Of a stretch of 64,000 bases of DNA, positions 4,784 through 58,811 are shown piece by piece. Both the position numbers and the translations under genes were made by a program. Source of the stretch: Kribbella sp. CA-293567 (GTDB lineage Bacteria > Actinomycetota > Actinomycetes > Propionibacteriales > Kribbellaceae). The DNA lies in NCBI RefSeq assembly GCF_027627575.1, contig NZ_CP114065.1, forward strand, positions 5,518,001-5,582,000, in the 5' to 3' direction. Numbering within the stretch: position 1 is the stretch's first letter; each line of letters opens with the position of its first letter. The notes below the pieces were generated by a model that did not search any database, had not been told where the DNA came from, and saw only the letters and a program-made list of their open reading frames with translations.

Positions 4784-6901
4784 TCAGCTGTGCAGGACGC
4801 CGATCAGGCGCCGGAGCCGCTGATTGTTCGGCAGATCCTCCACCAGCACCGGTACGCCGCCCGGCCCGCCGAGCGGGATCCGCCAGTTCGGGTACTCGTC
4901 GGTGGTGCCCGGCTGGTTCTGCGTACGCCGCTCGCCGACCGCGTCGGTCAGGGCGACGCCGACCAGCTTGGCCGGCGTGTGCGCGACGTACCGGTGCAGC
5001 GCCTCGACGATGCGCTCGACGTCGCCGTCCGCGTTGCCGAGCAGGTGCCGCTCGCGCAGCGCGTTGAGCCAGGAGTCCCGGTCCGCCTCGTCCACGGCGA
5101 GCTCCTCGGCGACCGGCCGGGTCAGCAGGCCGAGCCGGTCCCGTAGCTCGACGTGGTCGCCCGCCAGGTAGCCGGCGGTCGGCGGCAGGTCGTGGGTGGT
5201 CACGGTGGCCAGGCAGAGCTCACGCCAGCGCTCGGGCGGCAGCGGGTCTCCGTCGGCATCGCGCTCGAACCACAGCACCGACGTACCGAGGACTCCGCGT
5301 TCGGTGAGGTAGTCACGCACCCAGGACTCGACCGTGCCGAGGTCCTCCCCCACCACGACCACGTCGGCGCGGGAGGCCTCCAGGACGAGGATGCCGATCA
5401 GCGCTTCGTGGTCGTAGCGCACGTAGGTGCCTTCGGTCGGCCGGTCGGGCGACGTCACCCACCAGAGCCGGAACAGCCCCAGGATGTGGTCGATCCGCAG
5501 TCCGCCGCTGTGCCGGATCACCGACCGGACGAGGTCGCGCCACGGCGCGTACCCACTGGCGGCCAGTGCGTCCGGCCGCCAGGGCGGTTGCGACCAGTCC
5601 TGTCCCTGCTGGTTGAACGCGTCCGGCGGCGCGCCCACGTGGATGCCGGCGGCGAGTACGTGCTTGAGCGCCCACGCATCGGCACCATCAGGGTGTACGC
5701 CGACTGCCAGGTCGTGCAGGACGCCCAGCGACATACCGGCCGACTTCGCCCGCGCCTGGGTCCGGCAGAGCTGGTCGTCGAGCTGCCACTGCAGCCAGCA
5801 GTGGAACTCCACCGCATCCGGATTTTCGTTGCGGAAGGCAACAACTGCGGGTGCCGCCGGGTCCTGCAGCTCGGCCGGCCACTTGCTCCATTCGGGTCCG
5901 TGCACGTCGGCGATCGCGGCCCAGGTGGCGAAGTCGATCAGCCCCTGGCCCTCCCGGTCGCAGTACGAGCCGTACTCCGCGATGCGGCCTATCGACGGCC
6001 GGACCCCGAAGAGCAGCTGCAGGGCCTCGCGTTTGGCCGCCCAGACAGTGTCGCGGTCCAGCGCGTCCGCGTCCTCGCTCAGTGCCCGCGCCTGCAGGCC
6101 CAGCGTCCGGACGCGGTCCCGCTCGGCGGGCGCCAGGTCGCCGTACTCGTCGATGTCCTCGATCCGCAGGTAGAGCGGGTTCGCGAACCGCCGGGAGGCC
6201 GGCAGGTACGGCGAGGGCTCCATCCGGCCGGCGGTCTCGGCGGCGTGCAGCGGGTTGATCAGCACGAAGCCGGCACCCAGGTCGTTGGCCGACCACGCGG
6301 CCAGGTCGGCCAGGTCGTGCAGGTCGCCGATCCCCCACGACCTGCGGGAGCGCACGGAGTACAGCTGAAGCACCCAGCCCCAGGTCCGCTCCAGCTTCTG
6401 CGGCTCCAGCCGTTGTGGCGTGACGGTCAGCGAGCCGACCGAGATCTCCGGATTGCTGCCGATCCGCGCGCACAGCCGGTGATAGCCGAGCGGAAGGTCA
6501 CCGGGCAGTTGGTACGTCGCTTCGCCGACCCGTACGCCGTCGACCCACTCCGGCTCGACCCAGTGCTCCTGCTGCGGGATGTCACGACGCTGGCCGCCGT
6601 CCTCCAGATCCACCCACACCTCGGCGGTGGAGCCGTGCGGCAGGTGCACCGCGAACCAGGGCGTCCACCCGGCCCGCATCACCACCGTGGCAGGCAGAGT
6701 GCGACGCCAGCGAGCCTGCTGGTGATCGGCCAGCGCATCGGCGGCGCGCTCAGGGGTGGACGCGTCGACACCGAGCGCGGCGAGCACAGCAGAGACGACC
6801 TCGGACGAGACCTGTACGTGTTTGCCTCGCCAGTCCCAGTACTCGGTCGCCACTCCATGCGCGACGGCTAGCTCGACAAGGGCTGGAGTGGGAGCAGTCA
6901 C
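4784..6901 (-). CDS. malQ: 4-alpha-glucanotransferase (amylomaltase)
   Basis: 705 aa from the GTG at 6901 (MTAPTPALVELAVAHG); the frame stays open far upstream but codes nothing family-like there. GH77 catalytic elements are visible: RIDHILGLFRLWW (nucleophile Asp, near residue 468), VVVGEDLG (acid/base Glu, near 518) and TTHDLP (near 571). The long N-terminal beta-rich extension is normal for actinobacterial MalQ. The enzyme transfers alpha-1,4-glucan segments between maltodextrins in the cytoplasm. It stands alone, divergent from the phosphodiesterase gene. No good ribosome site is seen, so the start is moderately certain. Confidence 0.9.
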   Translation of the reverse strand: MTAPTPALVELAVAHGVATEYWDWRGKHVQVSSEVVSAVLAALGVDASTPERAADALADHQQARWRRTLPATVVMRAGWTPWFAVHLPHGSTAEVWVDLEDGGQRRDIPQQEHWVEPEWVDGVRVGEATYQLPGDLPLGYHRLCARIGSNPEISVGSLTVTPQRLEPQKLERTWGWVLQLYSVRSRRSWGIGDLHDLADLAAWSANDLGAGFVLINPLHAAETAGRMEPSPYLPASRRFANPLYLRIEDIDEYGDLAPAERDRVRTLGLQARALSEDADALDRDTVWAAKREALQLLFGVRPSIGRIAEYGSYCDREGQGLIDFATWAAIADVHGPEWSKWPAELQDPAAPAVVAFRNENPDAVEFHCWLQWQLDDQLCRTQARAKSAGMSLGVLHDLAVGVHPDGADAWALKHVLAAGIHVGAPPDAFNQQGQDWSQPPWRPDALAASGYAPWRDLVRSVIRHSGGLRIDHILGLFRLWWVTSPDRPTEGTYVRYDHEALIGILVLEASRADVVVVGEDLGTVESWVRDYLTERGVLGTSVLWFERDADGDPLPPERWRELCLATVTTHDLPPTAGYLAGDHVELRDRLGLLTRPVAEELAVDEADRDSWLNALRERHLLGNADGDVERIVEALHRYVAHTPAKLVGVALTDAVGERRTQNQPGTTDEYPNWRIPLGGPGGVPVLVEDLPNNQRLRRLIGVLHS

Positions 6902-43544: not shown

Positions 43545-44486
43545 ATGCTGCTGCGCCAGCTCGAGTACCTCGTCTCCCTCGCCCGGGAACGGCACTTCGC
43601 CCGCGCGGCCGACGCCTGCTACGTGTCGCAGCCCTCGCTGTCCGCGGGGATCCGCAAGCTGGAGCAAGAGCTCGACGTACCGATCGTCCGGCGCAGCCGC
43701 CGCTACGAAGGACTCACCCCTGAAGGCGATCGGGTCCTGCTCTGGGCGCAACGCATCCTGGCCGAGCGTGACGCACTGCGGCACGAGCTGTCGGTGATGC
43801 GCGGCGGATTGACCGGCACGCTCCGGCTCGGGGCGATCCCGACCGCGATGCCCGTCGTCTCGTTGCTGACCACCCCCTTCTGCGAACGCCACCAGCAGGC
43901 GCGAGTCACACTGAAATCGCTGTCGTCGCGCGACATCACCCAGAAGCTGGCCGAGTTCGAACTGGACGTCGCGATGACCTATCTCGACGACGACACGCTC
44001 GGCCAGGTCCGCAAGACACCCCTGTACGAAGAGCGTTACCTGTTGCTGACCCCGGAGGACGGCGTACTCGCGGAACTTCCGGTCGCGACCTGGGCAGAGG
44101 TATCGAAGCAACCGTTGTGCCTGCTTTCGCCGCAGATGCGCAACCGGCGGATCATGAACGACTACTTCACCGACGACGGCGTAACGGCCCGCCCTGCGAT
44201 CGAGAGCGACACCGTCTCGGGCCTCTACAGCCACCTGCGCGGCAACCATTGGTCGACCGTCATCTCGCACGCCTGGCTGCACATGTTCGGCGTACCGGCC
44301 GGGATGAAGGTCGTTCCGCTGAAGAGTCCCGCGCACGGCCCGCGCGTCGGCCTGGTGATCGCCGCCCGGAGCCCCGAGCCGGTTCTCGCCCGCGCGCTGC
44401 TGGACGTCGCCCGGCTGGCCGGCGTCCACACCGCCCTGGACGAACTGCTCGACGTTCACCTCATGAGCACGCAACTGATCCGATAG
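43545..44486 (+). CDS. LysR-family regulator
   Basis: 313 aa. Typical N-terminal helix-turn-helix: LRQLEYLVSLARERHFARAADACYVSQPSLSAGIRKLEQELDVPIVRRSRRYEGLTPEGDRVL. The effector domain has the periplasmic-binding-protein fold (GTLRLGAIPTAMPVVSLLTTPF ...). Relatives sit beside organic-acid and formate dehydrogenase or CoA genes in actinobacteria, so it may regulate the acyl-CoA genes downstream, but there is no divergent partner here. The gene is flanked by ATGTATACAG boxes. Confidence 0.9.
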   Translation: MLLRQLEYLVSLARERHFARAADACYVSQPSLSAGIRKLEQELDVPIVRRSRRYEGLTPEGDRVLLWAQRILAERDALRHELSVMRGGLTGTLRLGAIPTAMPVVSLLTTPFCERHQQARVTLKSLSSRDITQKLAEFELDVAMTYLDDDTLGQVRKTPLYEERYLLLTPEDGVLAELPVATWAEVSKQPLCLLSPQMRNRRIMNDYFTDDGVTARPAIESDTVSGLYSHLRGNHWSTVISHAWLHMFGVPAGMKVVPLKSPAHGPRVGLVIAARSPEPVLARALLDVARLAGVHTALDELLDVHLMSTQLIR

Positions 44487-44600: not shown

Positions 44601-44610
44601 ATGTATACAG
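44601..44610. promoter_or_regulatory. ATGTATACAG box before the 54-aa reading frame
   Basis: Identical to the ten bases at 43488-43497. It lies 31 bases before the ATG at 44641, where a promoter or operator would be expected. Confidence 0.45.
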
Positions 44611-44640: not shown

Positions 44641-44805
44641 ATGATGATCTTCACCCGTAGGTTCGGCGCTCTGGCGGCCCGCCCGCAGTTTCCGGACGCA
44701 CCGGAACTGCAGCAGGAACTGACCGTCGACGCGGAGCTCCAGCAGCACGACGCCGGCCGCTCCGAGAACGGCGAAGAGTCGGAGCGGATCACGACCGCCG
44801 CCTGA
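44641..44805 (+). CDS. Possible small protein of 54 aa
   Basis: ATG-ATG start after GAGAGG. The product begins MMIFTRRFGALAARPQFPDAPELQQELTV and is acidic toward the C-terminus, with no membrane segment. Upstream lie a direct repeat and an ATGTATACAG box, and downstream the GntR operator, so it may be a small regulated gene. No family is recognised and its size leaves doubt; the minus-strand frame here is likewise unconvincing. Confidence 0.4.
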   Translation: MMIFTRRFGALAARPQFPDAPELQQELTVDAELQQHDAGRSENGEESERITTAA

Positions 44806-44911: not shown

Positions 44912-44944
44912 GTGGCACTTGGTAGACTGTCTACCAAGTGCCAC
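44912..44944. promoter_or_regulatory. Perfect 33-base palindrome, operator of the GntR gene
   Basis: Sixteen-base arms (GTGGCACTTGGTAGAC and its complement) flank a single T at 44928. The core TGGTAGAC-T-GTCTACCA has the TNGTN..ACNA shape known for FadR/FCD GntR regulators. It ends 32 bases before the GntR ATG, so autoregulation is likely. Confidence 0.8.
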
Positions 44945-44976: not shown

Positions 44977-45738
44977 ATGACGACAATCAGCGCGGGCCCG
45001 GATGCCAACTCCGACTCCCCCGGCGTCCGGCACGTCAAGCGGCCGACGCCCCTGCGTGAGTCGGTCTACGAGGCACTGACCGAGATGATCATCGACGGCA
45101 CCCTGGAGCGCGGCCGGCACCTGGTCGAGGTGGAACTGGCCGGCATCCTCGGCGTCTCCCGGCAGCCGGTGCGCGAGGCTCTCCAGCGACTCAACAACGA
45201 GGGCTGGGTCGATCTGCGGCCGGGGTTCGGCGCGATGGTGCACGTGCCGGCCGAGGACGAGGTCGATCAACTGCTGGCCGCTCGGGCGGCGCTCGAGTCC
45301 GAGTCCGCGCGACTGGCCGCTCGCAATCCGGACAAGGAAGCGGTGGCCAAGCTCAGAGAGCTCTGCAAGATCGGCGCGAACCTGCAGGAGACCGGCGACA
45401 TCGACGGCGCCGTCCGGACGAACGCCGAGCTGCACGGCCTGATCACCGAGATGTCCGGCAACCGCTTCCTGGTCGACTTCGCCGGCCAGGTCGACCGGCG
45501 GGTCCGCTGGTACTACACGCCGGTCGCCCCGGTCCGCGGCGCCGCTTCGTGGCGCGAGCACACCCGGCTGGTCAAGGCGATCGCCGACGGCGACGAGGAC
45601 AAGGCCGCTCAGATCATGCGCGAGCACACCGAGCACACCCGTAAGGCGTACCGCGACCTGCAGGCCGGCGCGGAGCCCGCAGAACCCCCCGCCCCGGAGA
45701 AAAAGCCGACCCCTCGCCGCCGCCGTACCACCAACTGA
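44977..45738 (+). CDS. GntR-family regulator, FCD (FadR) subfamily
   Basis: 253 aa from the ATG at 44977, behind GGGGAAGGA; an upstream GTG lies inside the palindrome and is unlikely. Winged helix: LRESVYEALTEMIIDGTLERGRHLVEVELAGILGVSRQPVREALQRLNNEGWVDLRPGFGAMVHV. The FCD effector domain (about 85-225) has the helical bundle with Asp/His metal ligands (NAELHGLITEMSGN, REHTRLVKAI). FCD regulators sense carboxylic acids, fitting the adjacent oxalate/formyl-CoA genes. The tail is Pro/Arg/Lys-rich. Confidence 0.92.
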   Translation: MTTISAGPDANSDSPGVRHVKRPTPLRESVYEALTEMIIDGTLERGRHLVEVELAGILGVSRQPVREALQRLNNEGWVDLRPGFGAMVHVPAEDEVDQLLAARAALESESARLAARNPDKEAVAKLRELCKIGANLQETGDIDGAVRTNAELHGLITEMSGNRFLVDFAGQVDRRVRWYYTPVAPVRGAASWREHTRLVKAIADGDEDKAAQIMREHTEHTRKAYRDLQAGAEPAEPPAPEKKPTPRRRRTTN

Positions 45739-45853: not shown

Positions 45854-46402
45854 TCAGGCGGGGGTGCGGCGGCGGTTGGTGCGGGACCGGGTGGTGGCTG
45901 CTTTGCGTTCGGCCAGGGAGGTGGCCAGTTCTACGTACTGCGTGACGACCCGGCGGGCGTACGGGTTGTGGTCGAGGATCCGGGGCCACCAGTGGCGGCC
46001 CAGCTGTTCGTGCATCCACAGGAAGCCGATCGCGAAGCCCATGCTGAGCAGCGCGCGGAAGGCCAGGAACCGCCAGGGGTCCGCCGGGAGGCCCGACGTG
46101 CCGGTGACGGTCCATTCGGTGACGATCGCGTGCACCATCAGGGCCAGCGGGAAGCCGATCACCCAGTAGACCGCAGCCGGGGCGAACACCCCGGGAGGAA
46201 GCTTGCCGAGGGCAAGCAGTACGGCGTACCCGATGCCGAAGGCGGCCAGCGGGACGGCCAGTCCCAGGCCGGTCACGATCGCCCAGCCGGCGGGCCGGCC
46301 GACGAACGCGGCCAACCCGCCGGCGACGAGACCGGCTGCTGCTCCCACCGAGGCGGCGGGCACGGAGAACTCCGCCAGCTGCCGGACCTTTGCGTCGATC
46401 AT
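45854..46402 (-). CDS. Integral membrane protein of unknown function, last gene of the oxalate operon
   Basis: 182 aa with about four membrane helices (FSVPAASVGAAAGLVAGGLAAFVG; WAIVTGLGLAVPLAAFGIGYAVLLALG; YWVIGFPLALMVHAIV; FRALLSMGFAIGFLWMHEQLG) and a basic C-terminal tail. One base separates it from the Nramp-like gene, so it may be a subunit or helper of that transporter. No family name is offered. Confidence 0.75.
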   Translation of the reverse strand: MIDAKVRQLAEFSVPAASVGAAAGLVAGGLAAFVGRPAGWAIVTGLGLAVPLAAFGIGYAVLLALGKLPPGVFAPAAVYWVIGFPLALMVHAIVTEWTVTGTSGLPADPWRFLAFRALLSMGFAIGFLWMHEQLGRHWWPRILDHNPYARRVVTQYVELATSLAERKAATTRSRTNRRRTPA

Positions 46403-46403
46403 C

Positions 46404-47903
46404 TCAGCCCACGACCACGCCGAAGCGCACCAGGCTGTAGAACAGCATGCCCAGGTAGAACACCGCGCCGAACCCGATGATGGCGTTGCGCACCGGCCCG
46501 GGCCGGATCGGTTTGGGCAGCAGCTTGTTGTTCACCAGGAGCAACACCACGCAGTAGGCACCCATCGCGAAGGTGGACAGGAACGCCAGGATGTCCAGGA
46601 TGCCCGCCGGACCGTCGGCCGGCCCGAACAGCAGGATCAGGATCCCGAAGGTGATCACGCCCCAGAGGAATCCGGCGTACAGCTTGGACATCGAGAACCG
46701 CTTGGCGCCCGGGACGAAGTAGTAGGTCATGTCCGCCTGGCCGCGGGAGAACGAGTCGAACAGCCCCAGCGTGGCGTTCAACCCGATCAGCGCGATGAAG
46801 GCGAAGAACAGCGTGCCCAGGATCGGGCTGCCGGCCGAGGCGAACGCGTCCGACATCGCCTTCAGAGCGGCCTCCCGGTCACCTCCCTCGATCAGCCCGG
46901 CCACGTCCGGGTTCTCCCGGGCCGCCGACATCGCCAGCACGGTGAACGAGATCGTCACCAGCATGGTGATTCCCCAGAAGAGCAGCAGCGCGTCGAAGGT
47001 GACCCACTTGCGCCAGCCCTTCCACTTCTTCATCTCCTCGGGGTCCTCGGTGTCGAACATGTACCCGCGCGACGGCATCGACTCCGCCTCGTCCGCGGAC
47101 CGCAGGCCACGGATCTTCGGGATGTGCGCGCCCATGCCGGCGCCGCTGTCGCGCAACTGCAGGGTGTACCACATCTGCTGCATCCCGGACGGGCCGGCGA
47201 AGGCGATCGACCCGACCAGGATCGGGAACCACACGTCCGACAGCGCCTTGTCCGGCAGGAAGCCGACCGCGAACATGCCCGACAACGTCTGGGCCAGGTC
47301 GTCCCAGCTGCCGACGATCGCCGCGATCACCGAGGTGCCGACGACCAGGAAGCCGATCAGGAAACCGAGCAGCTTCTCCAGGAAGTTGTAGATCACCGAC
47401 AGCAGGCTGAACAGCACCCCGACGAAGATCAGCGCCACACAGGCCGACAGCTGCCAGGGGATCCCGGAGATCTCCTCGAAGGCGGCCGCGCCGGCCGAGA
47501 GATGCCCCGGCCAGATGTAGATCAGGATCGCCGCGACGTAGAAGAACCACATCAGCGGTTTGAACACCCGCGCGGCGCCGAAGAAGATGCTCTCCCCGGT
47601 CGCCATCGCGTACCGCGCCATCTCCAGCAGCACGAACGCCTGCAGGGTGACACCGACCATGAACAGCCAGCGGATGTCCGGCCCGAACACCAGGACGAGC
47701 CGGGGCCACATGTAGGACTCGCCCATACCGACGCCCAGCGCGACCAGGAAGACGGTCGGACCGAGGATGTGCAGCGAGGGTGGGGCCGGCGGCAGCGGCC
47801 GGATCGGCATCGGTTCGAGCCGGCCGGCCTTCCAGACCCGCTCGGTGCCGGCCGGGACCGCGGGATCTTCGGGTACTTCTGAGGTCTTGCTTGTGACGTC
47901 CAA
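46404..47903 (-). CDS. Nramp-fold transporter lacking the metal-binding motifs
   Basis: 499 aa from a TTG start with AAGGAG seven bases upstream. Eleven or so helices in the Nramp order. The TM1 segment that normally reads DPGN is GMGES here (GPTVFLVALGVGMGESYMW), and the TM6 MPH is replaced by SIAFAGPSGMQQMWYTL. Without those ligands Mn/Fe transport is unlikely. A cytoplasmic insert (about 265-310, with DTEDPEEMKKWKGWRK) is also unusual. In the operon with frc it may carry a carboxylate or other solute; inference only. Confidence 0.8.
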   Translation of the reverse strand: MDVTSKTSEVPEDPAVPAGTERVWKAGRLEPMPIRPLPPAPPSLHILGPTVFLVALGVGMGESYMWPRLVLVFGPDIRWLFMVGVTLQAFVLLEMARYAMATGESIFFGAARVFKPLMWFFYVAAILIYIWPGHLSAGAAAFEEISGIPWQLSACVALIFVGVLFSLLSVIYNFLEKLLGFLIGFLVVGTSVIAAIVGSWDDLAQTLSGMFAVGFLPDKALSDVWFPILVGSIAFAGPSGMQQMWYTLQLRDSGAGMGAHIPKIRGLRSADEAESMPSRGYMFDTEDPEEMKKWKGWRKWVTFDALLLFWGITMLVTISFTVLAMSAARENPDVAGLIEGGDREAALKAMSDAFASAGSPILGTLFFAFIALIGLNATLGLFDSFSRGQADMTYYFVPGAKRFSMSKLYAGFLWGVITFGILILLFGPADGPAGILDILAFLSTFAMGAYCVVLLLVNNKLLPKPIRPGPVRNAIIGFGAVFYLGMLFYSLVRFGVVVG

Positions 47904-47945: not shown

Positions 47946-50090
47946 TCACGAACCGAGCGGACCCGCGTTCCGGGCCCAGCGGTACTTGGCACCGAGCACC
48001 TGGACGGGTGTCTCGGTGGTGTACGGATAGGCGACGATGCCGTGCTCGAACAGGTACTGACTGGCTTCCTCCACCTCGACGTCCCCCGACAGCGAGGCGA
48101 CCACGGGCTTGTCGATACCCTTGGCCCGGTACTCCTCGACCACCTCGGCGACCAGCTCGGCGAACACCATCGGCGGTGTCACGATCGTGTGCCAGTAGCC
48201 CAGGATCAGTGCATGGATCCGGTCGTCCTCGAGTCCGAGCGCGACCGTGTTGCGGTATGTCGCCGGCGGCTCGCCACCGGTGATGTCGACGGGGTTGCCG
48301 GCCGCGCCGAACGGCGGAATGAACTTCCTGAACGCCGCGTCCAGGTCCGGCGGGATCGTCATCAGCTGCAGCCCGTTGTCGACGCAGGCGTCCGAGAGCA
48401 GGACTCCCGAGCCGCCCGCGCCGGTGATGATGACGACGTTCTCGCCCTTCGGCGTCGGCAGCAGCGGAATGCCCCGGGCGTACTGGAGCATCTCGTTCAG
48501 GCCCGGCGCGCGAACCACCCCGCTCTGCCGCAGGATGTCGTCGTAGACCTTGTCGTTGCCGGCCAGCGCTCCCGTATGCGAGCTAGCGGCCTTGGCGCCC
48601 GCACTGGTCCGGCCGGCCTTGAGCACCACCACGGGCTTCTTCTTCGACACCCGCGCGGCCGTCTCCGCGAAGGCGCGGCCGTCCTTGAGATCTTCCAGAT
48701 GCATGGCGATCAGCTTGGTGTTGTCGTCGGTCTCGAAGAACGTGAGGAGGTCATCCTCGTCGATGTCGGCCTTGTTGCCTACTCCAACGATCGCGGAGAC
48801 ACCCATCCGGCTCGATCGGCTGAAGCCGAGGATCGCCATCCCGATCCCGCCGCTCTGCGAGGACAGCGCGACACTGCCCTGCACGTCGTACGGCGTACAG
48901 AAGGTGGCGCAGAGCTGCTCCGGCAGGTAGTAGTAGCCGTAGATGTTCGGCCCCAGGATCCGTACGCCGTGCTTGCGCGCGATCGCCACGACCTCGTCCT
49001 GCAGTTCCTGCTCACCGGTCTCGGCGAAGCCCGACGGGATCAGGATGGCCCCGGCCACGCCCTTCTCACCGCACTGCTCGAGCGCGCCGCCGACGAACTT
49101 GGCCGGTACGGCGAACACCGCCACGTCCACGTCGCCCGGCACGTCGGTGATCGACGGGAACGCCTTCAGCCCGAGAACCTCGCCACCCTTGGGGTTGATC
49201 GGGTAGATGTCGCCGGCGTACCCACCGTTGACCAGGTTCTTCATCACCGAGTTGCCGATCTTGCCGTCCTCGTTGGAGGCGCCGATCACGGCCACCGCCC
49301 GCGGCCTCATGATCCGGGTCATCGCGGTCAGGATCTCGTCCTGGCTGTACCGCTCGACCGGTTTGCCGGCCTCGGCGTCGACGATGATCCGGAAGTCCAC
49401 CGCGGTGGCACCGTCCGGGCCGGCCAGCACCGGGTTGAGATCGACCTCCGCGAACTGCGGGAAGTCCTCCACCAGGTCGGACAGTCTGCTGATGATCGCG
49501 GCGATCGCGTCCTTGTCCACCGGCTTCGAGCCGCGCACGCCGTTGAGCATCTCGTGCGCGCCGATCCCGTCGACCATCGAGCGGGCCTCGGCCGGCGAGG
49601 TCGGCGCCAGCCGGAAGGTGACGTCCTTCAGCACCTCGACCAGCACCCCACCGAGCCCGAAGGCGACGATCTTGCCGAAGGTCTCGTCGGTGACCGACCC
49701 GACGATGACCTCCTGGACGTCGCCACCGGTGACCAGCATCTTCTGCACCTGTACGCCGGTGATCCGCGCGGAGGCGTCGTAGGCACGGGCGTTGGCGACG
49801 ATCCGCTCGTACGCCGTCACCGCCGCCTCCGCGCTGTCGACGCCGACCACCACGCCACCCGCCTCGGTCTTGTGCAGGATGTCCGGCGAGACGATCTTCA
49901 GCACGACCGGGAAGCCGATCTCGGCCGCCAGCCCGGCGGCCTCCTCGGCGGTCGCGGCGAGCCCTTCTCCCGGGGTCGGGATGCCGTAGGCGTCCGCGAC
50001 CAGTTTGGCCTCGGGGGCGCTCAGCGAGGTCCGGCCTTCCGCCAGCGCCTGATCGAGGACGGTCTGGACAGCTGCCTTGTCATAAGTCAT
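47946..50090 (-). CDS. Acyl-CoA synthetase (NDP-forming), fused beta-alpha
   Basis: 714 aa. The ATP-grasp part is N-terminal (about 1-235; GFPVVLKIVSPDILHKTEAGGV, VDLNPV), followed by the CoA-binding and ligase domains (RPRAVAVIGASNEDGKIGNSV; SQSGGIGMAIL; phospho-His in SSHTGALAG). This order is reversed from the usual acetyl-CoA synthetase fusion. It forms an acyl-CoA with ATP (or GTP), releasing ADP and phosphate. In this operon the substrate could be oxalate, formate or another short acid. AGGAG precedes the ATG. Confidence 0.88.
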   Translation of the reverse strand: MTYDKAAVQTVLDQALAEGRTSLSAPEAKLVADAYGIPTPGEGLAATAEEAAGLAAEIGFPVVLKIVSPDILHKTEAGGVVVGVDSAEAAVTAYERIVANARAYDASARITGVQVQKMLVTGGDVQEVIVGSVTDETFGKIVAFGLGGVLVEVLKDVTFRLAPTSPAEARSMVDGIGAHEMLNGVRGSKPVDKDAIAAIISRLSDLVEDFPQFAEVDLNPVLAGPDGATAVDFRIIVDAEAGKPVERYSQDEILTAMTRIMRPRAVAVIGASNEDGKIGNSVMKNLVNGGYAGDIYPINPKGGEVLGLKAFPSITDVPGDVDVAVFAVPAKFVGGALEQCGEKGVAGAILIPSGFAETGEQELQDEVVAIARKHGVRILGPNIYGYYYLPEQLCATFCTPYDVQGSVALSSQSGGIGMAILGFSRSSRMGVSAIVGVGNKADIDEDDLLTFFETDDNTKLIAMHLEDLKDGRAFAETAARVSKKKPVVVLKAGRTSAGAKAASSHTGALAGNDKVYDDILRQSGVVRAPGLNEMLQYARGIPLLPTPKGENVVIITGAGGSGVLLSDACVDNGLQLMTIPPDLDAAFRKFIPPFGAAGNPVDITGGEPPATYRNTVALGLEDDRIHALILGYWHTIVTPPMVFAELVAEVVEEYRAKGIDKPVVASLSGDVEVEEASQYLFEHGIVAYPYTTETPVQVLGAKYRWARNAGPLGS

Positions 50091-50127: not shown

Positions 50128-51354
50128 TCAGACGACGCCGGCGGCCTTGAGCTCCGCCAGTTCCGCGGTGTCGATGCCGAGACCGCCGTAGATCGCGGAG
50201 TTGTGCTCGCCCAGACCGGGTGAGGTCTCCACCTGGACCGGCGAGTCGGACAGCTTGATCGGGCAGCCGACGGTCTTGAAGGTGCCGCGCTGCGGGTGCT
50301 TCACCTCGACGACCGCGCCGAGTTCGGCCAGCGTCTCGTCCTCGATCAGTTCCCGGGTGGACAGGATCGGGCCGCACGGCACGTTCAGCGCGTTCAGCTT
50401 CTCCATCACCTCGAACTTGGTGTGCTGCTCGGTCCAGGTCTCGATCAGCGCGAACATCTTGTCGAGCTTGTCGAGCCGGGCCGCCGGGCTGTTCCAGTCC
50501 GGGTCGTCGGCCAACTCGGGTTTGCCGATCAGGTGCGCGATCGGGGCCCAGCCGGGCGGCTGGACGATCACGTAGATGTAGTCGTTCGGCCCGCCGGGCG
50601 CGGTCCGGACGGCCCAGCCGGGCTGTCCACCGCCCGAGGCGTTGCCGGAGCGCGGTACCTCGTCACCGAAGTTGTCGTTCGGGTACTCCTTGAGCGGACC
50701 GTGCGCGAGCCGCTGCTGGTCGCGCAGCTTGACCCGGGTCAGGTTCAGCACGGCCTCCTGCATCGCCACGCTGACCCGCTGTCCCTTCCCGGTGACGGTC
50801 CGCTGGTACAGGGCCGCGAGGATGCCGGCGACCAGGTGGATGCCGGTCCCGGAGTCACCGATCTGAGCCCCGGTGGCGGTCGGCGGCCCGTCCTCGAAAC
50901 CGGTCGTGCTCATCGCGCCGCCCATCGCCTGGGCGACCACCTCGTAGGCCTTGAAGTCCTCGTAGCGGCCCGGGCCGAAGCCCTTGATCGAGGCGTAGAT
51001 CAGCTCCGGGTTGATCAGCTGCAGCCGGTCCCAGGTGAAACCCATCCGGTCGATCGCGCCGGGGGCGAAGTTCTCCACCAGGATGTCGGAGTTCTTCACC
51101 AGGTCGGTGAAGATCTCCTTGCCCCGCTCGGACTTCATGTTCAGCGTGATGCTGCGCTTGTTGCAGTTCAGCATGGTGAAGTAGAGGCTGTCGACGTCGG
51201 GCAGGTCGCGCAACTGCTGCCGGGTGATGTCTCCGGTCGGCGCCTCCAGCTTGATCACGTCGGCGCCGAGCCAGGCCAGGATCTGGGTGCAGGACGGTCC
51301 GGACTGCACGTGCGTCATGTCGAGTACACGAACACCTTCAAGGGCCTTGGGCAT
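50128..51354 (-). CDS. frc: Formyl-CoA transferase (formyl-CoA:oxalate CoA-transferase)
   Basis: 408 aa, class III CoA-transferase. Catalytic Asp167 lies in [11 protein letters not shown], Gln17 in THVQSGP, and the flexible Gly loop is [10 protein letters not shown]. Segments such as [21 protein letters not shown] and [17 protein letters not shown] closely match the known oxalate enzyme. It moves CoA from formyl-CoA to oxalate, giving oxalyl-CoA and formate. GGAGG precedes the ATG; 12 bases after the ThDP enzyme gene. Confidence 0.92.
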
Positions 51355-51366
51355 GACGGTCCTCCG

Positions 51367-53085
51367 CTACTTGTACATGGTCTGGTTCATCGTTCCGGGC
51401 GCGTAGGCGTCCGGATCGACCCACACGTTGATCAGCGACGGCAGGCCGGACTCGCGGGCCCGCTGCATGGCCGGCCCGATGTCCTTGGGATCACGGACCT
51501 CTTCGCCGTAGCCGCCGAGCATCTTGGCGAACTGGTCGTACTTGACGTCGCCGAGCGTGTTGCCGATCCGGCCCCGGTCCTGCCCGTACTTCGCTTCCTG
51601 GCCGTAGCGGATCTGGTTCATCGACGAGTTGTTGCCGACCACCCCGACGAACGGGAGCTTGAACCGGACCAGCGTCTCGAAGTCCCAGCCGGTCAGCGAG
51701 AAGGCGCCGTCACCGAACAGCGCGACCACCTCCTTGTCCGGCCGGGCGTACTTCGCCGCCATCACGAACGGGATGCCGACCCCGATGGTGCCGAGCGGTC
51801 CCGGGTCCATCCAGTGGCCGGGCGACTTGGGCTGCACCACGCCACCGGAGAAGGTGACGATGTCGCCGCCGTCACCGATGTAGATGGAGTCCTCGGTGAG
51901 GAACTCGTTGATCTCGTGCGCCAGCCGCAGCGGGTGGATCGGGTTGGCGTCCGACAACTGCCGCGGCAGCCGCTTCTGGTACGCCGCGTCCTCTTCGGCC
52001 CGCAGTTCGCTGAACCAGGCCTTGCGGTCACCGGCCTTCGCGATCCGGCCGGAGGAAGCCTGCGTGACCGCCGCGAGGATCGCGCCCGGGTCGCCGACCA
52101 GGCCGAGATCGATGTCGCGGTTCTTGCCGACGGTGCGGTAGTCCAGGTCGATCTGGACCACGGTCGCGCCCTTCGGCAGCCGGCGGCCGTAGCCCATCCG
52201 GAAGTCGAACGGCGTACCGACGATCAGGATCAGGTCGGCGTTGTCGAAGCCGTACCGCCGGGACAGGTGGAAGTGGTGCGGGTCGCCGGGCGGCAGGGTG
52301 CCGCGGGCCGAGCCGTTCATGAACGCCGGGATGTTCAGCTTGCGGACGAAGTCGATCGCCGCGTCACTGCCGCGAGCGGTCCAGACCTGGGTGCCGAGCA
52401 GGACGACGGGCTTCTCCGCGCGGGCCAGCAGATCGGCGAGCGCCTCGACGTTCGCCGGGTCGCCGATGCTCTTGGTCGAGCCGCGGTACCGGCCGGTCTC
52501 GGGGACGATCGCGGACTCGACCGGGACGGAGTTGTCCAGGATGTCGCGCGGGATCTCCAGGAAGGACGGACCGGGAGCGCCGTTGTAGCACTCGCGGAAC
52601 GCCATCGAGACCATGTCGGCCACCCGGGCGGTGTGCGGCACGGTGGCGGCGAACTTGGTGATCGGCGTCATCATGTCGACGTGCGGGAGGTCCTGCAGTG
52701 AGCCCATCTTGTGCTGGTTGAGGGCGCCCTGGCCGCCGATCAGCAGCATCGGGCTCTCCGCCCGGAAGGCGTTGGCGACTCCGGTGACGGCGTCCGTCGT
52801 CCCGGGGCCGGCGGTGACGACCGCACACCCCGGCTTGCCGGTCATCCGGGCGTAGCCGTCGGCGGCGTGCGCTGCGACCTGCTCGTGCCGGACGTCGACG
52901 ACGGCGATGCCCTCGTCGACGCAGCCGTCGTAGATGTCGATGATGTGCCCTCCGCAGAGGGTGAAGATCACGTCGATCCCTTCGGCCTTGAGGGCCTTGG
53001 CCACCAGATGGCCGCCGGAGATCGTCGCCGTGCTCGGCGCCGGCTCGGTGATCACCGCATTGCTTTCGGAAACTGTTTGCGCCAT
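51367..53085 (-). CDS. ThDP-dependent oxalyl-CoA decarboxylase / 2-hydroxyacyl-CoA lyase family
   Basis: 572 aa from the ATG at 53085; an ATG at 53097 abuts GAGGAG directly and is less suited. ThDP motifs: catalytic Glu68 in DVRHEQVAAHAADGYAR and GDGAFSLTGWDFETLVRFKLPFVGVVGNN. The gene partner frc argues for oxalyl-CoA decarboxylase (oxalyl-CoA to formyl-CoA and CO2). The segment GGQGALNQHKMGSLQDLPHVDMM and the long C-terminus also recall actinobacterial 2-hydroxyacyl-CoA lyases, which also yield formyl-CoA. First gene of the operon. Confidence 0.8.
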   Translation of the reverse strand: MAQTVSESNAVITEPAPSTATISGGHLVAKALKAEGIDVIFTLCGGHIIDIYDGCVDEGIAVVDVRHEQVAAHAADGYARMTGKPGCAVVTAGPGTTDAVTGVANAFRAESPMLLIGGQGALNQHKMGSLQDLPHVDMMTPITKFAATVPHTARVADMVSMAFRECYNGAPGPSFLEIPRDILDNSVPVESAIVPETGRYRGSTKSIGDPANVEALADLLARAEKPVVLLGTQVWTARGSDAAIDFVRKLNIPAFMNGSARGTLPPGDPHHFHLSRRYGFDNADLILIVGTPFDFRMGYGRRLPKGATVVQIDLDYRTVGKNRDIDLGLVGDPGAILAAVTQASSGRIAKAGDRKAWFSELRAEEDAAYQKRLPRQLSDANPIHPLRLAHEINEFLTEDSIYIGDGGDIVTFSGGVVQPKSPGHWMDPGPLGTIGVGIPFVMAAKYARPDKEVVALFGDGAFSLTGWDFETLVRFKLPFVGVVGNNSSMNQIRYGQEAKYGQDRGRIGNTLGDVKYDQFAKMLGGYGEEVRDPKDIGPAMQRARESGLPSLINVWVDPDAYAPGTMNQTMYK

Positions 53086-53138
53086 CTGTGCAGTCATCTC
53101 CTCGGAGGAAGGCCGCTCGGGAAGGTCAGCCTGTAGAT

Positions 53139-53151
53139 TGCATACCGTATG
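53139..53151. promoter_or_regulatory. TGCATACCGTATG operator, copy 1
   Basis: CATAC-C-GTATG is a palindrome with a one-base centre. The full 13 bases recur exactly at 55461-55473 before the antiporter gene. This copy is 54 bases upstream of the ThDP-enzyme ATG and 62 upstream of the divergent coiled-coil gene. Confidence 0.7.
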
Positions 53152-53212
53152 TGGTAGTCGTAGTCTTATCGCACCGCGGAACCCGTTGTCCAGAGCTCGG
53201 CAGGGAGTGGAC

Positions 53213-53497
53213 GTGACGATCCAGGACGAACTGCGCCAGACCCGCCGTGCGGTCCGGAACCTCGAGAAAGCCCTTGCGGGGTTACGGAACCAGCTCGGCC
53301 CGCACCTCGACGTACTCCGCCTGGTCGATGACGTCGCCCGGTGCTCGACGGACCTGCGGCGACTGGAGGAGCAGCTGCATGCTCCACAACGCCAAGAGCT
53401 CGTCGTCATCCCCGACGACGAGTACGACCATCACCTGTGGGCCACCGGCGACGCCGACCACGAAGGCGTCGGCGCGCCCGGCCGGAGTACCTTCTAG
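53213..53497 (+). CDS. Small coiled-coil protein of 94 aa
   Basis: GTG start with GGGAG upstream. Residues 1-55 form an amphipathic helix (DELRQTRRAVRNLEKALAGLRNQL ... DVARCSTDLRRLEEQL), followed by an acidic tail with VVIPDDEYDHHLW. No domain is recognised. Divergent from the decarboxylase operon and under the same intergenic operator; its stop shares CTAG with the convergent gene. It could be a small regulator or scaffold, but nothing proves this. Confidence 0.6.
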   Translation: MTIQDELRQTRRAVRNLEKALAGLRNQLGPHLDVLRLVDDVARCSTDLRRLEEQLHAPQRQELVVIPDDEYDHHLWATGDADHEGVGAPGRSTF

Positions 53498-54075
53498 CGA
53501 ACCCTCGGTGCGGCGAGGCGAGGCTGAGGGTCCAGCACGTCCATGTCCTTGGCATCGAGCAACCGCAGACACTGCTTCAGTAGGTGACGAAGCCGAATGT
53601 CGTCGGCAGTACGCGCAGCCACGACCACGGCCTCGGCGGCGTGTTCTGGCGCGATGAAGTTGCGGTACAACGGCTCGCTCAGAGCGATCCGGTCGAGCAC
53701 CGGCAACCACCACCGCGCCGGACCATCAGGTGCGGGCGCGGATTTCAGCAGGAAGAGCGCGGTCTGATGCGCTCTGGCCAACCGCCCGCGCTCGCCTTGG
53801 CCGAGGTCGGTGGCCGCCGTTCGCGCGGTCGCCACACAAAGCGCCACCAGCCGGGCCGAACGGTCGATCCCCGGTTCGGCCGTGCCGAGGAAGGCCGGCG
53901 CCAGTGGCAGGAGCTTCCGCCGGCCGGCCTTCGTGCTGTGGTCGTGGACCATCCGGGCGATCGAGCCGAGGACCGGATGAACGCAGGCCGGGCGATCCGT
54001 CCAGGGCTCTCGCGCCAGCTTGGAGACCAGTTCCAGGACACACGGTTCGGGCCGCGCCACCCGGCCGTAGGTCAC
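53494..54075 (-). CDS. Unknown helical protein coupled to the antiporter gene
   Basis: 193 aa from the GTG at 54075, which overlaps the antiporter stop by four bases (GTGA). Predominantly alpha-helical, rich in Ala/Leu/Arg, with no signal or membrane helix. It includes ACVHPVLGSIARMVHDHSTKAGRRKLLPLAPAFLG, conserved-looking but not of a family I know. Coupling to the transporter suggests a linked role in oxalate or formate exchange. Confidence 0.65.
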   Translation of the reverse strand: MTYGRVARPEPCVLELVSKLAREPWTDRPACVHPVLGSIARMVHDHSTKAGRRKLLPLAPAFLGTAEPGIDRSARLVALCVATARTAATDLGQGERGRLARAHQTALFLLKSAPAPDGPARWWLPVLDRIALSEPLYRNFIAPEHAAEAVVVAARTADDIRLRHLLKQCLRLLDAKDMDVLDPQPRLAAPRVR

Positions 54076-55442
54076 TCGCCCGGCCGGCCCTGCAACGAGA
54101 CGGTACCGGCGACCGGGGTACCCAGTTGCCGTCTTTCCGTCAGCGACGGCCGGCCCGGCTGTTTCAGGAAGCGGACGGTCAGAGCGGTGACGAGACCGAG
54201 CACGCCCGCACCGAGAAAGACCGGGCGGTAGCCGAACGCCTCCACCACACTGGCGGTGACGCCGATCCCGACCAGACCACCGGCCGCCTTGGCGGAGTAC
54301 AGGATCGCCTGGTTCTGCAGCAGACTGTTCTCGCCGAAGAACTCGAGCACCAGATTGGCCATGATCGCGTAGAACGCGCCGCCGCCGAGGCCCGCGAACA
54401 TCGCGCAGAGCACGAACGCCCACCCGGCGCCGGACTCGCCCGCCAGTACCAGTCCGACGTGGGCGAGCCCTTCGATCATCAGTACGGCGGCCAGCACCCG
54501 GCGGCGGCCGAACCGGTCCGACAGGTGACCGGCGAAGGACCGGCCGAGACCGTTGACCGCAGCAAGCATTCCCGCCGCGAAGCCGGCCACCGCGAGACTC
54601 AGCCCCGCCTGGATCGCATAGCTGACCACGAACGCGATACCGAACAACGACAGCGCTGTGCAGAGTGCGAGGGTCAGCCACATCATCGGCAGCGCACCGG
54701 TACGCATCGCCTCGCCCGGGCGGTAGTGCCGGGCGGCGGGCAGGTTGTTCGGGATGCTGCGGTTGAGCTTGCGGTCCACGGCCCAGGCCTGCGCGTCGAG
54801 GTCGGCCGGCCACCAGTGCCGGGGAGGATCCTTCAGCACACTGCCGGCCGTCATCACGACCAGGAGCACCAGCGCGGCCGCGAGATCGAAGACGAGGCGG
54901 TGGTCGGTGAAGGCCAGCAGGCCGATACTCGGAACGGCGCCGACAGCGAAGCCGCCGGTGACGAACCCGATCGTGGCGACCCGCTTGTCGGGGAACCAGC
55001 GGGCCGCGGTCGTGATGCAGGCGGCGTACACGAGACCGGCTCCGGTGCCGCCGATCAACGCGTAGCCGAGCACCACCGCCAGATAGCTGGCCGAGTGCGC
55101 CAACGTCGCCAGACCAGCGGCGGCGAACACCCCACCCAGTACGACGAGTTGGGTCGGCGAGGCCCGGCGTACGCGCTGGAGCCAGGCGGCCGGAATCGCG
55201 ACCAGCGCCTGAGCAGCGACGAAGAGAGCGAGCAACCACATCGTCGGGACCGCGCCCCAGCCCCGGCCGGCCTGAAGATCCAGCGCGGCCGACCCGAACG
55301 AGTACTGCAGTGGGCTGATCGCCACCATGCAGGCCCAGGCAGCCCAGAGCTGCCATCGCCTCGGGTGGCCGGTGAGTTCCTGGGCGTCCTCGCCGACCCG
55401 GTACTGGCGGCCGTACACGTCACGCACATCCCGTGGCTTCAT
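54072..55442 (-). CDS. Oxalate/formate antiporter family (OFA) MFS transporter
   Basis: 456 aa from the ATG at 55442 with AAGGAGG. Twelve helices; N-terminal PRRWQLWAAWACMVAISPLQYSFG, the MFS loop GHLSDRFGRRRVL, FVTGGFAVGA and the C-terminal half GLGGGAFYAIMANLVLEFFGENSLLQNQAILYSAKAAGG resemble OFA proteins. These exchange oxalate for formate, which matches the Frc pathway output. The 13-base operator lies in the short leader. Confidence 0.85.
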   Translation of the reverse strand: MKPRDVRDVYGRQYRVGEDAQELTGHPRRWQLWAAWACMVAISPLQYSFGSAALDLQAGRGWGAVPTMWLLALFVAAQALVAIPAAWLQRVRRASPTQLVVLGGVFAAAGLATLAHSASYLAVVLGYALIGGTGAGLVYAACITTAARWFPDKRVATIGFVTGGFAVGAVPSIGLLAFTDHRLVFDLAAALVLLVVMTAGSVLKDPPRHWWPADLDAQAWAVDRKLNRSIPNNLPAARHYRPGEAMRTGALPMMWLTLALCTALSLFGIAFVVSYAIQAGLSLAVAGFAAGMLAAVNGLGRSFAGHLSDRFGRRRVLAAVLMIEGLAHVGLVLAGESGAGWAFVLCAMFAGLGGGAFYAIMANLVLEFFGENSLLQNQAILYSAKAAGGLVGIGVTASVVEAFGYRPVFLGAGVLGLVTALTVRFLKQPGRPSLTERRQLGTPVAGTVSLQGRPGE

Positions 55443-55460
55443 CGGAGCCTCCTTGGCTAC

Positions 55461-55473
55461 TGCATACCGTATG
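55461..55473. promoter_or_regulatory. TGCATACCGTATG operator, copy 2
   Basis: Identical to 53139-53151. It lies 19 bases before the antiporter start. About 60 bases farther on, GCATACAGAATACAG (55535-55549) repeats the ATACAG half twice, before the sucC-like gene. Confidence 0.7.
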
Positions 55474-55582
55474 AGCCTTTGGTACCTGTCTCCGTCGCCG
55501 CTGTCCAGAGCTCGGCCACCCTTGTGATGGAAGTGCATACAGAATACAGTCGCCACATCCGCTCATGCCGAGGAGGACTTCC

Positions 55583-56737
55583 GTGGATCTGATGGAGTAC
55601 CAAGCCAAAGAACTCTTCGCCCGGCACGGGGTGCCGGTCACCCTCGGCCGGGTGGTCGAGGACGCGGCCGACGCCGCCGCGGCGGCCGAGGAACTGGGCG
55701 GCCGGGTGGTGGTCAAGGCGCAGGTCAAGGCCGGCGGCCGCGGCAAGGCCGGTGGGGTCAAGCTGGCCGCGGATGCCGCCGAGGCGACCGCGCGGGCCGG
55801 CGACATCCTCGGCATGGACATCAAGGGCCACACCGTCCGCCGGGTGCTGCTCGCGCCGGCCGCGGACATCGCCGAGGAGTACTACCTGTCCTTCGTGGTG
55901 GACCGGGCCGAGCGCAACTACCTGTGCATCGCGAGCACCGAAGGCGGGGTCGAGATCGAGGAGGTCGCGCACAGCGACCCGGATGCGATCGCGAAGGTGC
56001 CGATCGATCCGGCGGTCGGCGTCGACGAGGCGAAGGCGGCCGAGATCGTCGCCGCCGCGGGCTTCCCCGCCGAGGCGGCGTCCGTCGTACGGGCGTTGTG
56101 GGAGGTGTTCGTCCAGGAGGACGCATCCCTGGTGGAGGTCAATCCGCTGGTGAAGCTCGGTGACGGTTCGCTGGAGGCGCTGGACGGCAAGGTGACGCTC
56201 GACGAGAACGCGGCGTACCGGCACCCCGACCACGCGGCCTTCGCCGATCACGCGGCCGCCGATCCACTGGAGGCCGCGGCCCAGGCCAAGGGCCTGAACT
56301 ACGTCAAGCTCGACGGCTCGGTCGGCATCATCGGCAACGGTGCCGGACTGGTGATGTCGACCCTCGACGTCGTCGCGTACGCCGGTGAGGCGCACGGCGG
56401 GGTGCGGCCGGCCAACTTCCTCGACCTCGGCGGCGGCGCCTCCGCCGAGGTGATGCGCAACGGGTTGAGCATCGTCCTCGGTGACCCACAGGTGCGCAGC
56501 GTGTTCGTGAACGTGTTCGGCGGCATCACCGCCTGTGACGCGGTCGCGAACGGCATCGTGCAGGCGCTCGAACTGCTCGGCAGCGAGGCCGGCAAGCCGC
56601 TCGTGGTCCGGCTGGACGGCAACAACGTGGCGGAGGGCCGGCGCATTCTCGCCCGGGCCGCCCACCCACTGGTGACGGTGGTCGACACCATGGACGGCGC
56701 CGCGGACCGCGCCGCCGAACTGGCCGCGCAGGCCTGA
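55583..56737 (+). CDS. sucC: Succinyl-CoA synthetase-like ATP-grasp (beta) subunit
   Basis: 384 aa from the GTG at 55583 ([19 protein letters not shown]), six bases after AGGAGG. The ATP-grasp domain ([21 protein letters not shown]), EVNPLV metal site, and the C-terminal [13 protein letters not shown] ... [13 protein letters not shown] are all in place. With the alpha subunit it forms an acyl-CoA from a dicarboxylic acid, ATP and CoA. Located divergent from the antiporter and distant from TCA genes, so it may be a specialised copy. Confidence 0.85.
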
Positions 56738-56751
56738 GGAGGTTCACGAAG

Positions 56752-57660
56752 ATGGCTATTTTCCTGACCCGGAACAGCAGGGTCGTCGTGCAGGGCATGA
56801 CCGGGGCGGAAGGGCTGAAGCACACGTCCCGGATGCTTGCCGCAGGCACCAATATCGTCGGCGGCGTGACGCCGGGCAAGGGCGGGCAGTCGGTCGACTT
56901 CGCCAAGCGGTCGATCCCGGTCCACGGCTCGTGCGCGGACGCGGTGCGGGCGACCGGAGCCGACGTGTCGATCGTCTTCGTGCCGCCGCGGTTCACCAGG
57001 GCCGCGGTGATCGAGGCGATCGACGCCGGCATCGCGCTGGTGGTGGTGATCACCGAAGGCGTGCCGGTGCACGACACCGCCGCGTTCTTCGCGCACGCGC
57101 GGGCGTCCGGCACCACCCGGATCATCGGACCCAACTCCCCCGGCCTGATCAGTCCCGGCCAGGCGAACGCGGGCATCATTCCGGCCGACATCGCCGGTCC
57201 GGGCCGGATCGGGCTGGTGTCGAAGTCCGGCACGCTGACCTACCAGATGATGCACGAGCTGCGTGACTACGGCTTCACCACCGCGATCGGGATCGGTGGC
57301 GACCCGATCATCGGGACGACGCACATCGACGCGTTGCGGGAGTTCCAGGACGACCCGGACACCGAGGCGATCGTGCTGATCGGCGAGATCGGCGGCGACG
57401 CCGAGGAACGCGCGGCGGCCTTCATCGCGCAGTACGTCACCAAGCCCGTGATCGGGTACGTCGCCGGCTTCACCGCTCCCGAGGGCAAGACGATGGGTCA
57501 TGCCGGCGCCATCGTCTCCGGCTCATCCGGGACGGCGGTCGCCAAGCAGCAGGCGCTCGAGGCCGTCGGCGTGAAGGTCGGCCGGACGCCGAGCGAGGCG
57601 GCCCGGCTGATGCGGGACGCGCTCGACCAGCTTCTCGTCCACTCGGGAGACCTGCCCTAG
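56752..57660 (+). CDS. sucD: Succinyl-CoA synthetase-like CoA-binding (alpha) subunit
   Basis: 302 aa. CoA-binding Rossmann ([34 protein letters not shown]) and the phospho-His in [15 protein letters not shown] are intact. Fifteen bases after the beta gene, with GAGGAGG. It carries the phosphohistidine intermediate. Its TAG shares CTAG with the convergent LacI stop. Confidence 0.88.
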
Positions 57661-58724
57661 GAGCCCGGCCGCGCCGCCGTCGTCCCGCGCGGCGGCGCCG
57701 TACTGGCGCGCACCACCAGCTCGGTGCCGACGGCAACGGGCTGGTGGTGGTGCTCACCCGCCTGGATCTCGTCGATCAGGGCGTCGACACTGCGACGGGC
57801 GACCTCGGCGAAGGACTGCCGGATCGTGGTCAGCGGCGGCCAGAACTGGGCGGCTTCCTCCATGTCGTCGAAGCCCACCACGCTGACGTCGCCGGGGACC
57901 GCCCGGCCGCGTTCGTGCAGAGCGCGCAGCAGACCGAGTGCCATCTGGTCGTTGGCCGCGAAGACCGCGGTGACGTCCGGGTTGGCGGCAAGCTCACGGC
58001 CGGCCTCGTAGCCGGAGCCGGCCGACCAGTCACCGGTCAACACCGGCGGCACCGTGCAGCCGCGGTCGGTCAGGGTCTGGCGCCACGAGCGCAGCCGGCG
58101 GGAGGCGGCGTACGAGTCCTCGGGGCCGCCGAGGTGCCAGACCGTCCGGTGCCCGAGGTCGAGCAGGTGCTCGACGGCCAGCCGGGCACCCTGCGCCTGG
58201 TCGGTGTCGACCACCGGGTAGTCCAGGTCGGCGTTCGAGTCGATCACCACGACCGGCATCCCCTCGGGCATCCGGACGTCAGCCTCGTCGAGCCGGTGCG
58301 CCTCGATCAGGATGATGACCCCGTCCACCGCCTGCTCGCCGAGCCGGTCGAAGGCGCCCGACAACGCGCTCTGGGTGGCGTCCGGCACCGGGATCAGGTT
58401 CACGGCGTACCCGCTGGCCGTCGCGGCGGTCGCGACCGCGTCGAGGGTACGGGTGTTGCCGAAGCTCGACAGGCCGAAGACGATCACGCCGATCCCGCGG
58501 AACCGGCCGTTGCGCAGCGCGCGGGCCGCGCTGTTCGGCCGGTAGCCGACCTGGCGCATCGCGGCCAGCACCCGCTCCCGGGTGTCCGCGTCGACGTTGA
58601 CCCGGCCGTTCGCGACCCGCGACACCGTCTGACCGGAGACGCCGGCCAGTTGCGCGACGTCGGCCATCGACGGCCCACGGCGTCGGCGTACCGGCGCCTG
58701 GACCGGCGTTTCGTCCGCTCTCAT
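57657..58724 (-). CDS. LacI-family transcriptional repressor
   Basis: 355 aa from the ATG at 58724, behind GAGGGGGG. Helix-turn-helix [57 protein letters not shown], then the sugar-binding core ([27 protein letters not shown]). By place it represses the divergent carbohydrate operon via two TGTTGACGTAAACA operators. Ligand is probably a sugar released from the polymer degraded by the neighbouring enzymes. Confidence 0.93.
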
Positions 58725-58762
58725 CGGTGCCCCCCTCGGCTCTCTCCGCTGAACTATAGACA

Positions 58763-58811
58763 TGTTGACGTAAACACGTTAGCTTCCTCGCCAGAAATGT
58801 TGACGTAAACA
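58763..58811. promoter_or_regulatory. Two identical LacI-type operators
   Basis: TGTTGACGTAAACA at 58763-58776 and again at 58798-58811, 35 bases apart. Each is a near-palindrome with TGTT/AACA ends. They lie between the LacI gene and the first permease gene (start 58829), the last one 17 bases before that start. Confidence 0.85.

Follow-up and report, generated by a model that had tools for sequence, protein, structure and literature searches.

A conserved operator marks an oxalate regulon in Kribbella and most probably belongs to a neighbouring GntR/FCD protein

The sequence TGCATACCGTATG occurs exactly at positions 53139-53151 and 55461-55473 of the window (the whole 64,000-nucleotide stretch of Kribbella sp. 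CA-293567 analysed here). Which genes does this repeat mark, and which protein reads it? Our results indicate that it is part of an operator that is real, is widely conserved and marks an oxalate regulon. Sequence comparisons suggest that the protein reading this operator is most probably the GntR/FCD regulator encoded nearby.

The operator core and the genes that it precedes

The preliminary description of this DNA had placed both 13-base copies in operon leaders, and this was confirmed: the 53139 site lies 42 bp upstream of the first ATG of a TPP-enzyme gene (start 53097), and the 55461 site 19 bp upstream of an MFS gene (start 55442). The genes of the island concerned are:

51367-53097, minus strand: TPP-dependent enzyme, divergent oxalyl-CoA decarboxylase-like (Oxc); Pfam TPP_enzyme N, M and C
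50128-51354, minus strand: formyl-CoA transferase (Frc); TIGR03253, 656 bits, above the cut-off of 504
47946-50090, minus strand: ADP-forming acyl-CoA ligase of the oxc operon; profile matches
46404-47903, minus strand: Nramp-family metal transporter of the oxc operon; NF037982, 469 bits, cut-off 50
54072-55442, minus strand: MFS transporter, oxalate/formate antiporter-like group; weak TIGR04259 match
55583-57660, plus strand: sucC-sucD paralogues, divergent from the MFS gene; profile matches

The oxc operon runs in the order TPP enzyme, formyl-CoA transferase, ADP-forming acyl-CoA ligase, Nramp transporter and membrane protein. The assignment of the island to oxalate rests on Frc, which passes its cut-off, on the order of the genes and on the weak profile matches. 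Decarboxylase and antiporter, the names used in the preliminary description, are plausible from this context, but both proteins miss the equivalog cut-offs. Thus, the TPP enzyme scores 231 bits against TIGR03254 (oxalyl-CoA decarboxylase; cut-off 739), with other TPP-enzyme families scoring higher, and the MFS protein scores 127 bits against TIGR04259 (oxalate/formate antiporter; cut-off 335) and 156 bits against the L-lactate MFS model (cut-off 320). The nearest solved relatives of the MFS protein are SfMCT (6g9x) and OxlT (8hpj). Note that the Nramp gene belongs invariably to the oxalate operon; its product may handle the divalent metal arriving with metal-oxalate salts. Two more island proteins, of 191 (53500-54072) and 182 (45854-46402) amino acids, are conserved and have no Pfam match.

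In the whole 7,611,196-base genome, TGCATACCGTATG with at most one mismatch was found at those two places only, with no copies in unrelated genes, and the reversed control pattern gave no match in the same 7.61-Mb scan. Dinucleotide shuffles of the window contained a mean of 0.27 matches to the 13-mer at up to two mismatches, which two exact leader copies far exceed; the earlier judgement that a chance repeat is very unlikely therefore holds. The remaining CATACnGTATG of the genome (135093; 5093-5103 of locus L175) reads ACCATACCGTATGGT; about 10 bp separate its end from the ATG of an unrelated 171-aa ORF, and it is probably the site of another regulator.

Judged from its letters, the operator is longer than 13 bp and is a three-box array, CATAC-n-GTATGnn-GTAGTC. 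In the Kribbella relatives, CATACnGTATGnnGTAGTC is found on the plus strand at oxc in 30/31 genomes and on the minus strand at the MFS gene in 28/31 (30/31 when read as GTAGnC), and within the window its shorter form CATACnGTATGnnGTAG occurs solely at the oxc and MFS sites. The ATACAG half-sites previously noticed before sucC are also real, and belong to an imperfect site whose minus strand is a direct repeat, GTATTC-T-GTATGC, with the 7-bp period seen in the other arrays. As predicted from these sites, the regulon would also take in sucCD, which refines the preliminary description. The operators, and the promoters predicted from the conserved spacing and sequence of 31 relatives (hexamers in transcript sense), are:

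53139-53165, plus strand: operator O1, oxc-frc operon; core TGCATACCGTATG at 53139-53151 and GTAGTC boxes at 53154-53165
55455-55473, minus strand: operator O2, MFS gene; CATACGGTATGCAGTAGCC, core at 55461-55473, exact in 30/31 relatives
55534-55549, plus strand: operator O3, sucCD; TGCATACAGAATACAG, overlapping the -10, form kept in 31/31 relatives
53163-53192, minus strand: predicted oxc promoter; -35 TGGACA at 53187-53192, 18-bp spacer, -10 TAAGAC at 53163-53168
55479-55507, minus strand: predicted MFS promoter; -35 TGGACA at 55502-55507, 17-bp spacer, -10 TACCAA at 55479-55484
55522-55550, plus strand: predicted sucCD promoter; -35 TTGTGA, 17-bp spacer, -10 TACAGT

All 31 oxc leaders carry TGGACA, 17-18 bp and TA[AT]GA[CA], followed, usually after 11 nt, by the operator. 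The MFS leaders (31/31) are built likewise, with TGGACA, 17-18 bp and TAC[CG]A[AC], and the operator usually begins 5-6 nt later. At sucC, the -10 TACAGT is kept in 31/31 leaders and TTGTGA at this spacing in 17/31, and the imperfect site runs into the -10. O1 and O2 thus lie over the expected transcription start and O3 over the -10, which is the placement expected of a repressor.

Conservation of the operator within and beyond Kribbella

Most genomes of the genus that were searched carry an ortholog of the enzyme (at least 90% identity), and the gene order is kept in the 31 islands compared. CATACcGTATG precedes oxc in 31/31 of these islands and the MFS gene in 30/31; the one deviating MFS leader reads CATACCGTATT. 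At O1, the core and the flanking boxes are kept in 31/31 and 30/31 relatives, respectively. At oxc the core does not vary at all, and at the MFS gene its identity is 99.8%; the flanks average 54% and 48%. Among 38 genus genomes, those bearing the enzyme nearly always have at least two CATACnGTATG, two of them in the island, and the enzyme-less genomes G007, G018, G023, G024 and G027 have 0, 0, 0, 0 and 1. Three genomes of the genus (L171, L172 and L173) apparently lack the whole segment that runs from the 182-aa membrane protein through SucCD, and there the GntR gene lies near the LacI gene.

The operator is also found outside the genus. In a class sample of 395 genomes, 29 of which have an ortholog of the TPP enzyme, ATACnGTAT was present within 200 bp of the enzyme gene in 27 of the 28 non-genus leaders (shuffles: mean 0.03, maximum 2), and the remaining leader carries CATATGGTATG. 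A second set, of named loci from other genera (including Amycolatopsis, Kibdelosporangium, Streptomyces, Streptosporangium, Pseudonocardia and Lentzea), had ATACnGTAT in 52 of 66 leaders (shuffle mean 0.09) and no exact copy in the other 14; the genomes are related, so the counts of both sets are not independent. Several of the named loci share Kribbella's own CATACGGTATGCAATCTAC, and some Streptomyces enzyme operators read CATACAGTATTCGTAGACTGTAT, which joins the operator boxes with those of the GntR leader described below. How far the motif lies from the enzyme start differs widely among families. A contig titled Rhodococcus rhodnii (L246) shows the operator and a near-identical enzyme match as in Kibdelosporangium, and is possibly a mislabelled record. 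The uniqueness of the operator in the genome and its conservation within and beyond the genus strongly support the proposal, already made in the preliminary description, that it defines a small regulon.

Candidate regulators

The candidate regulator and the sites around its gene are:

44977-45738, plus strand: GntR-family (FCD) regulator, proposed for the operators; Pfam GntR 1.5e-17, FCD 1.1e-27
44913-44943: 31-bp palindrome TGGCACTTGGTAGACTGTCTACCAAGTGCCA in the GntR leader, core GTAGAC-T-GTCTAC; proposed autoregulatory site, genus-conserved
44602-44610, plus strand: possible weak site TGTATACAG, in the leader of a 54-aa ORF upstream of gntR

Both domains of this protein score above their gathering thresholds (N-terminal GntR wHTH, 63.4 bits against 27; C-terminal FCD, 97.3 against 24.3), and the residues of the FCD metal site (D/N-x3-H, H, H), here N150, H154, H196 and H218, are conserved in an alignment of 45 sequences. 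The preliminary description had named two candidates, GntR and LysR, of which GntR is much better supported. Thus, a GntR ortholog is present in 29/29 enzyme-positive vs 12/366 enzyme-negative genomes (Fisher 1e-34, for genomes that are phylogenetically non-independent). In support of this, the islands of L095, L096, L099 and L100 include the GntR gene and have CATACnGTATG before both the MFS and the enzyme genes. In the Pseudonocardiaceae-type island of L096 the GntR frame overlaps the MFS stop codon and encodes the sole regulator recognised there; the unassigned gene that we checked encodes a TerC protein, not a regulator.

The motif also accompanies GntR/FCD genes elsewhere. In genus g45, CATACTGTATACAGTAT sites, of the form ATACnGTATAC, adjoin the GntR ortholog at MoeA, reductase and molybdopterin-oxidoreductase genes. 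A NuoEF-like fusion follows the last of these, which suggests a formate dehydrogenase; the locus is probably a branch of the regulon for formate dehydrogenase, which would make sense as the step that comes next in the pathway. The motif was not found at the formate-dehydrogenase homologs of Kribbella, which limits the formate extension to g45. In this genus, the GntR ortholog is next to the MoeA, reductase, molybdopterin-oxidoreductase and NuoEF-like genes with doubled ATACnGTATACnGTAT sites at 10228-16818 of L104, and also in L102, L103 and L179. More distant FCD GntR homologs are found near the motif in other pathways (L184 and L186-L188), and the recognition helix VSRQPVREA is common to the window protein, its orthologs, L184 and L186. 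In family f23 (L186 and L187), the motif is near an EII-Sor/EIID PTS and amidohydrolase locus of amino-sugar type, and it is possible that the code was reused there for amino sugars. In L188, the motif and the FCD homolog adjoin a nitrilase-type gene.

The palindrome in the GntR leader had been described as different from the operator. This is correct for its letters, but it does not look like an unrelated site. Across families, GntR leaders carry GTACAC-T-GTCTAC, GTAGAC-T-GTAGAC or GTATGC-T-GTAGGC-A-GTCGAC, and GTMNRC-N-GTMNRC on the same strand occurs in 24 of 29 non-genus GntR leaders (shuffle mean 0.3 on either strand), a pattern that was partly shaped by the data and whose shared TAnnCT could instead be a -10 element. 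Since the Streptomyces CATACAGTATTCGTAGACTGTAT combines both box types, we propose with moderate confidence that the palindrome is a variant of the same box code, with related GTNNNC boxes at a 7-bp period. The palindrome itself was rejected as part of a wider regulon, as it occurs at one place in this genome at up to three mismatches. Most relatives have the possible weak site at 44602, in the form GTATACAG or GTATGCAG; the 54-aa ORF (44641-44805) directly upstream of gntR is conserved and has no Pfam match.

Another possibility could be that a different, unlinked transcription factor binds the operator, GntR merely being encoded nearby and regulating its own gene via the palindrome. The differing letters of the two sites would fit this, as would three genomes (G018, G023 and G027) that retain GntR with its palindrome but have lost the oxalate genes and the island operators, and in which GntR may have another role. 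This is nevertheless unlikely given the 29/29 co-occurrence, the solitary GntR of the L096 island, the motif adjoining FCD-GntR genes in other pathways and the hybrid operators with both box types. Also counting against GntR are several class members that carry it in the absence of the enzyme gene, and the Streptomyces genome examined (G276), where ROK and ABC-transporter genes come after the GntR ortholog and oxc is about 26 kb away.

We regard it as very unlikely that the LysR-family protein encoded at 43545-44486 is the regulator, and rejected it on its poor co-occurrence. It is conserved in the genus island, and in L133 and L134 a 45% identical LysR gene starts beside TGCATACAGTATG, but it is present in 12/29 enzyme-positive genomes at E<=1e-60 and no homolog was found near the sites in L095, L096, L099 and L100. 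LysR sites are usually of T-N11-A form, and the everted repeat, centred on 1 bp, lacks it. The LacI protein encoded at 57657-58763 was likewise rejected, as it was not found in the Pseudonocardiaceae-type islands. Slighter still is the probability that the motif is a core-promoter or 5'-UTR element and not a regulator site: it does coincide with the expected transcription start of the two operons, at a constant spacing, but only two copies of the 13-mer exist in the genome, its distance to the enzyme start varies between families, and at sucC it overlaps the -10 in another arrangement. The first two of these points led us to reject it. A chance repeat can practically be dismissed, refuted by the conservation in 31/31 relatives as well as by the genome uniqueness and the cross-genus counts.

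Proposed mechanism and comparison with known regulators

On balance, we consider it likely that TGCATACCGTATG is the operator core of a local oxalate-catabolism regulon, to which the GntR/FCD protein would bind as a repressor released by a ligand. The sites, their overlap with the promoters, their conservation and the co-occurrence with GntR were observed directly; binding, repression and ligand we infer, as follows. A GntR/FCD dimer would bind arrays of GTATGC-like hexamers, made of the everted pair CATAC-n-GTATG and a third box 7 bp on. Without substrate, GntR dimers would cover the starts of the oxc-frc-ligase-Nramp operon and the MFS gene and the -10 of sucCD, blocking RNA polymerase. A small molecule would release the protein, the simplest candidate being oxalate or one of its derivatives, perhaps chelated at the conserved metal site of the FCD domain. 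GntR probably controls its own gene via the variant box pair GTAGAC-T-GTCTAC.

More tentatively, and with slightly less than even confidence, we suggest that an actinobacterial GntR/FCD lineage reads modular GT[AC]NRC hexamers, everted or in tandem at a 7-bp period, and that it governs how oxalate is taken up and degraded in many genera and, in some, also formate-dehydrogenase-like genes. Its own gene would be under a variant of the code, and related copies would have been reused for amino-sugar PTS genes. Oxalate is a common plant acid; the soil actinobacteria that degrade it contribute to the oxalate-carbonate carbon sink, and this degradation is also relevant to plant-microbe interactions. 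In the open literature searched, we found no description of an oxalate regulon with such an operator, or of a GntR regulator for oxalate. The gain is a named candidate regulator with its operators and gene set, and a short operator sequence by which oxalate genes can be located in genomes that lack annotation.

The proposed regulator resembles the FadR/FCD subfamily (PdhR, LldR, DgoR and HypR) in its wHTH and FCD domains with conserved FCD metal residues, in its local carboxylic-acid catabolic regulon with sites near the start or the -10, and in the GTATAC found in the related operators of genus g45; GTATAC is also present in the 44602 leader. The published operator consensus of this subfamily is TKGT/ACMA, in the order GT-N2/3-AC (PMC4494728). 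The TKGT-N2/3-ACMA form is common in the subfamily and not universal; the window sites read ATAC-n-GTAT instead, and the core is an everted CATAC-n-GTATG array, a mismatch that counts against GntR as the regulator. As occurs with HypR of Streptomyces coelicolor, which serves the hydroxyproline pathway (PMC6608401), the protein would be an actinomycete GntR-like repressor of a carboxylate catabolic cluster, and the HypR site lies over its own -10; the HypR motif, CTNTGC(A/C)ATGTCAC, is however unrelated to the operator described here. NanR of E. coli, whose operator is (GGTATA)3 (PMC8012715), is likewise an FCD GntR protein reading several short GTAT-like repeats, and a NanR model is among the closest NCBIfam matches. 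The boxes described here, in contrast, recur every 7 bp and include an everted one, and NanR controls sialic acid catabolism. Note that NanR, a known member of the subfamily, also deviates from TKGT-N2/3-ACMA.
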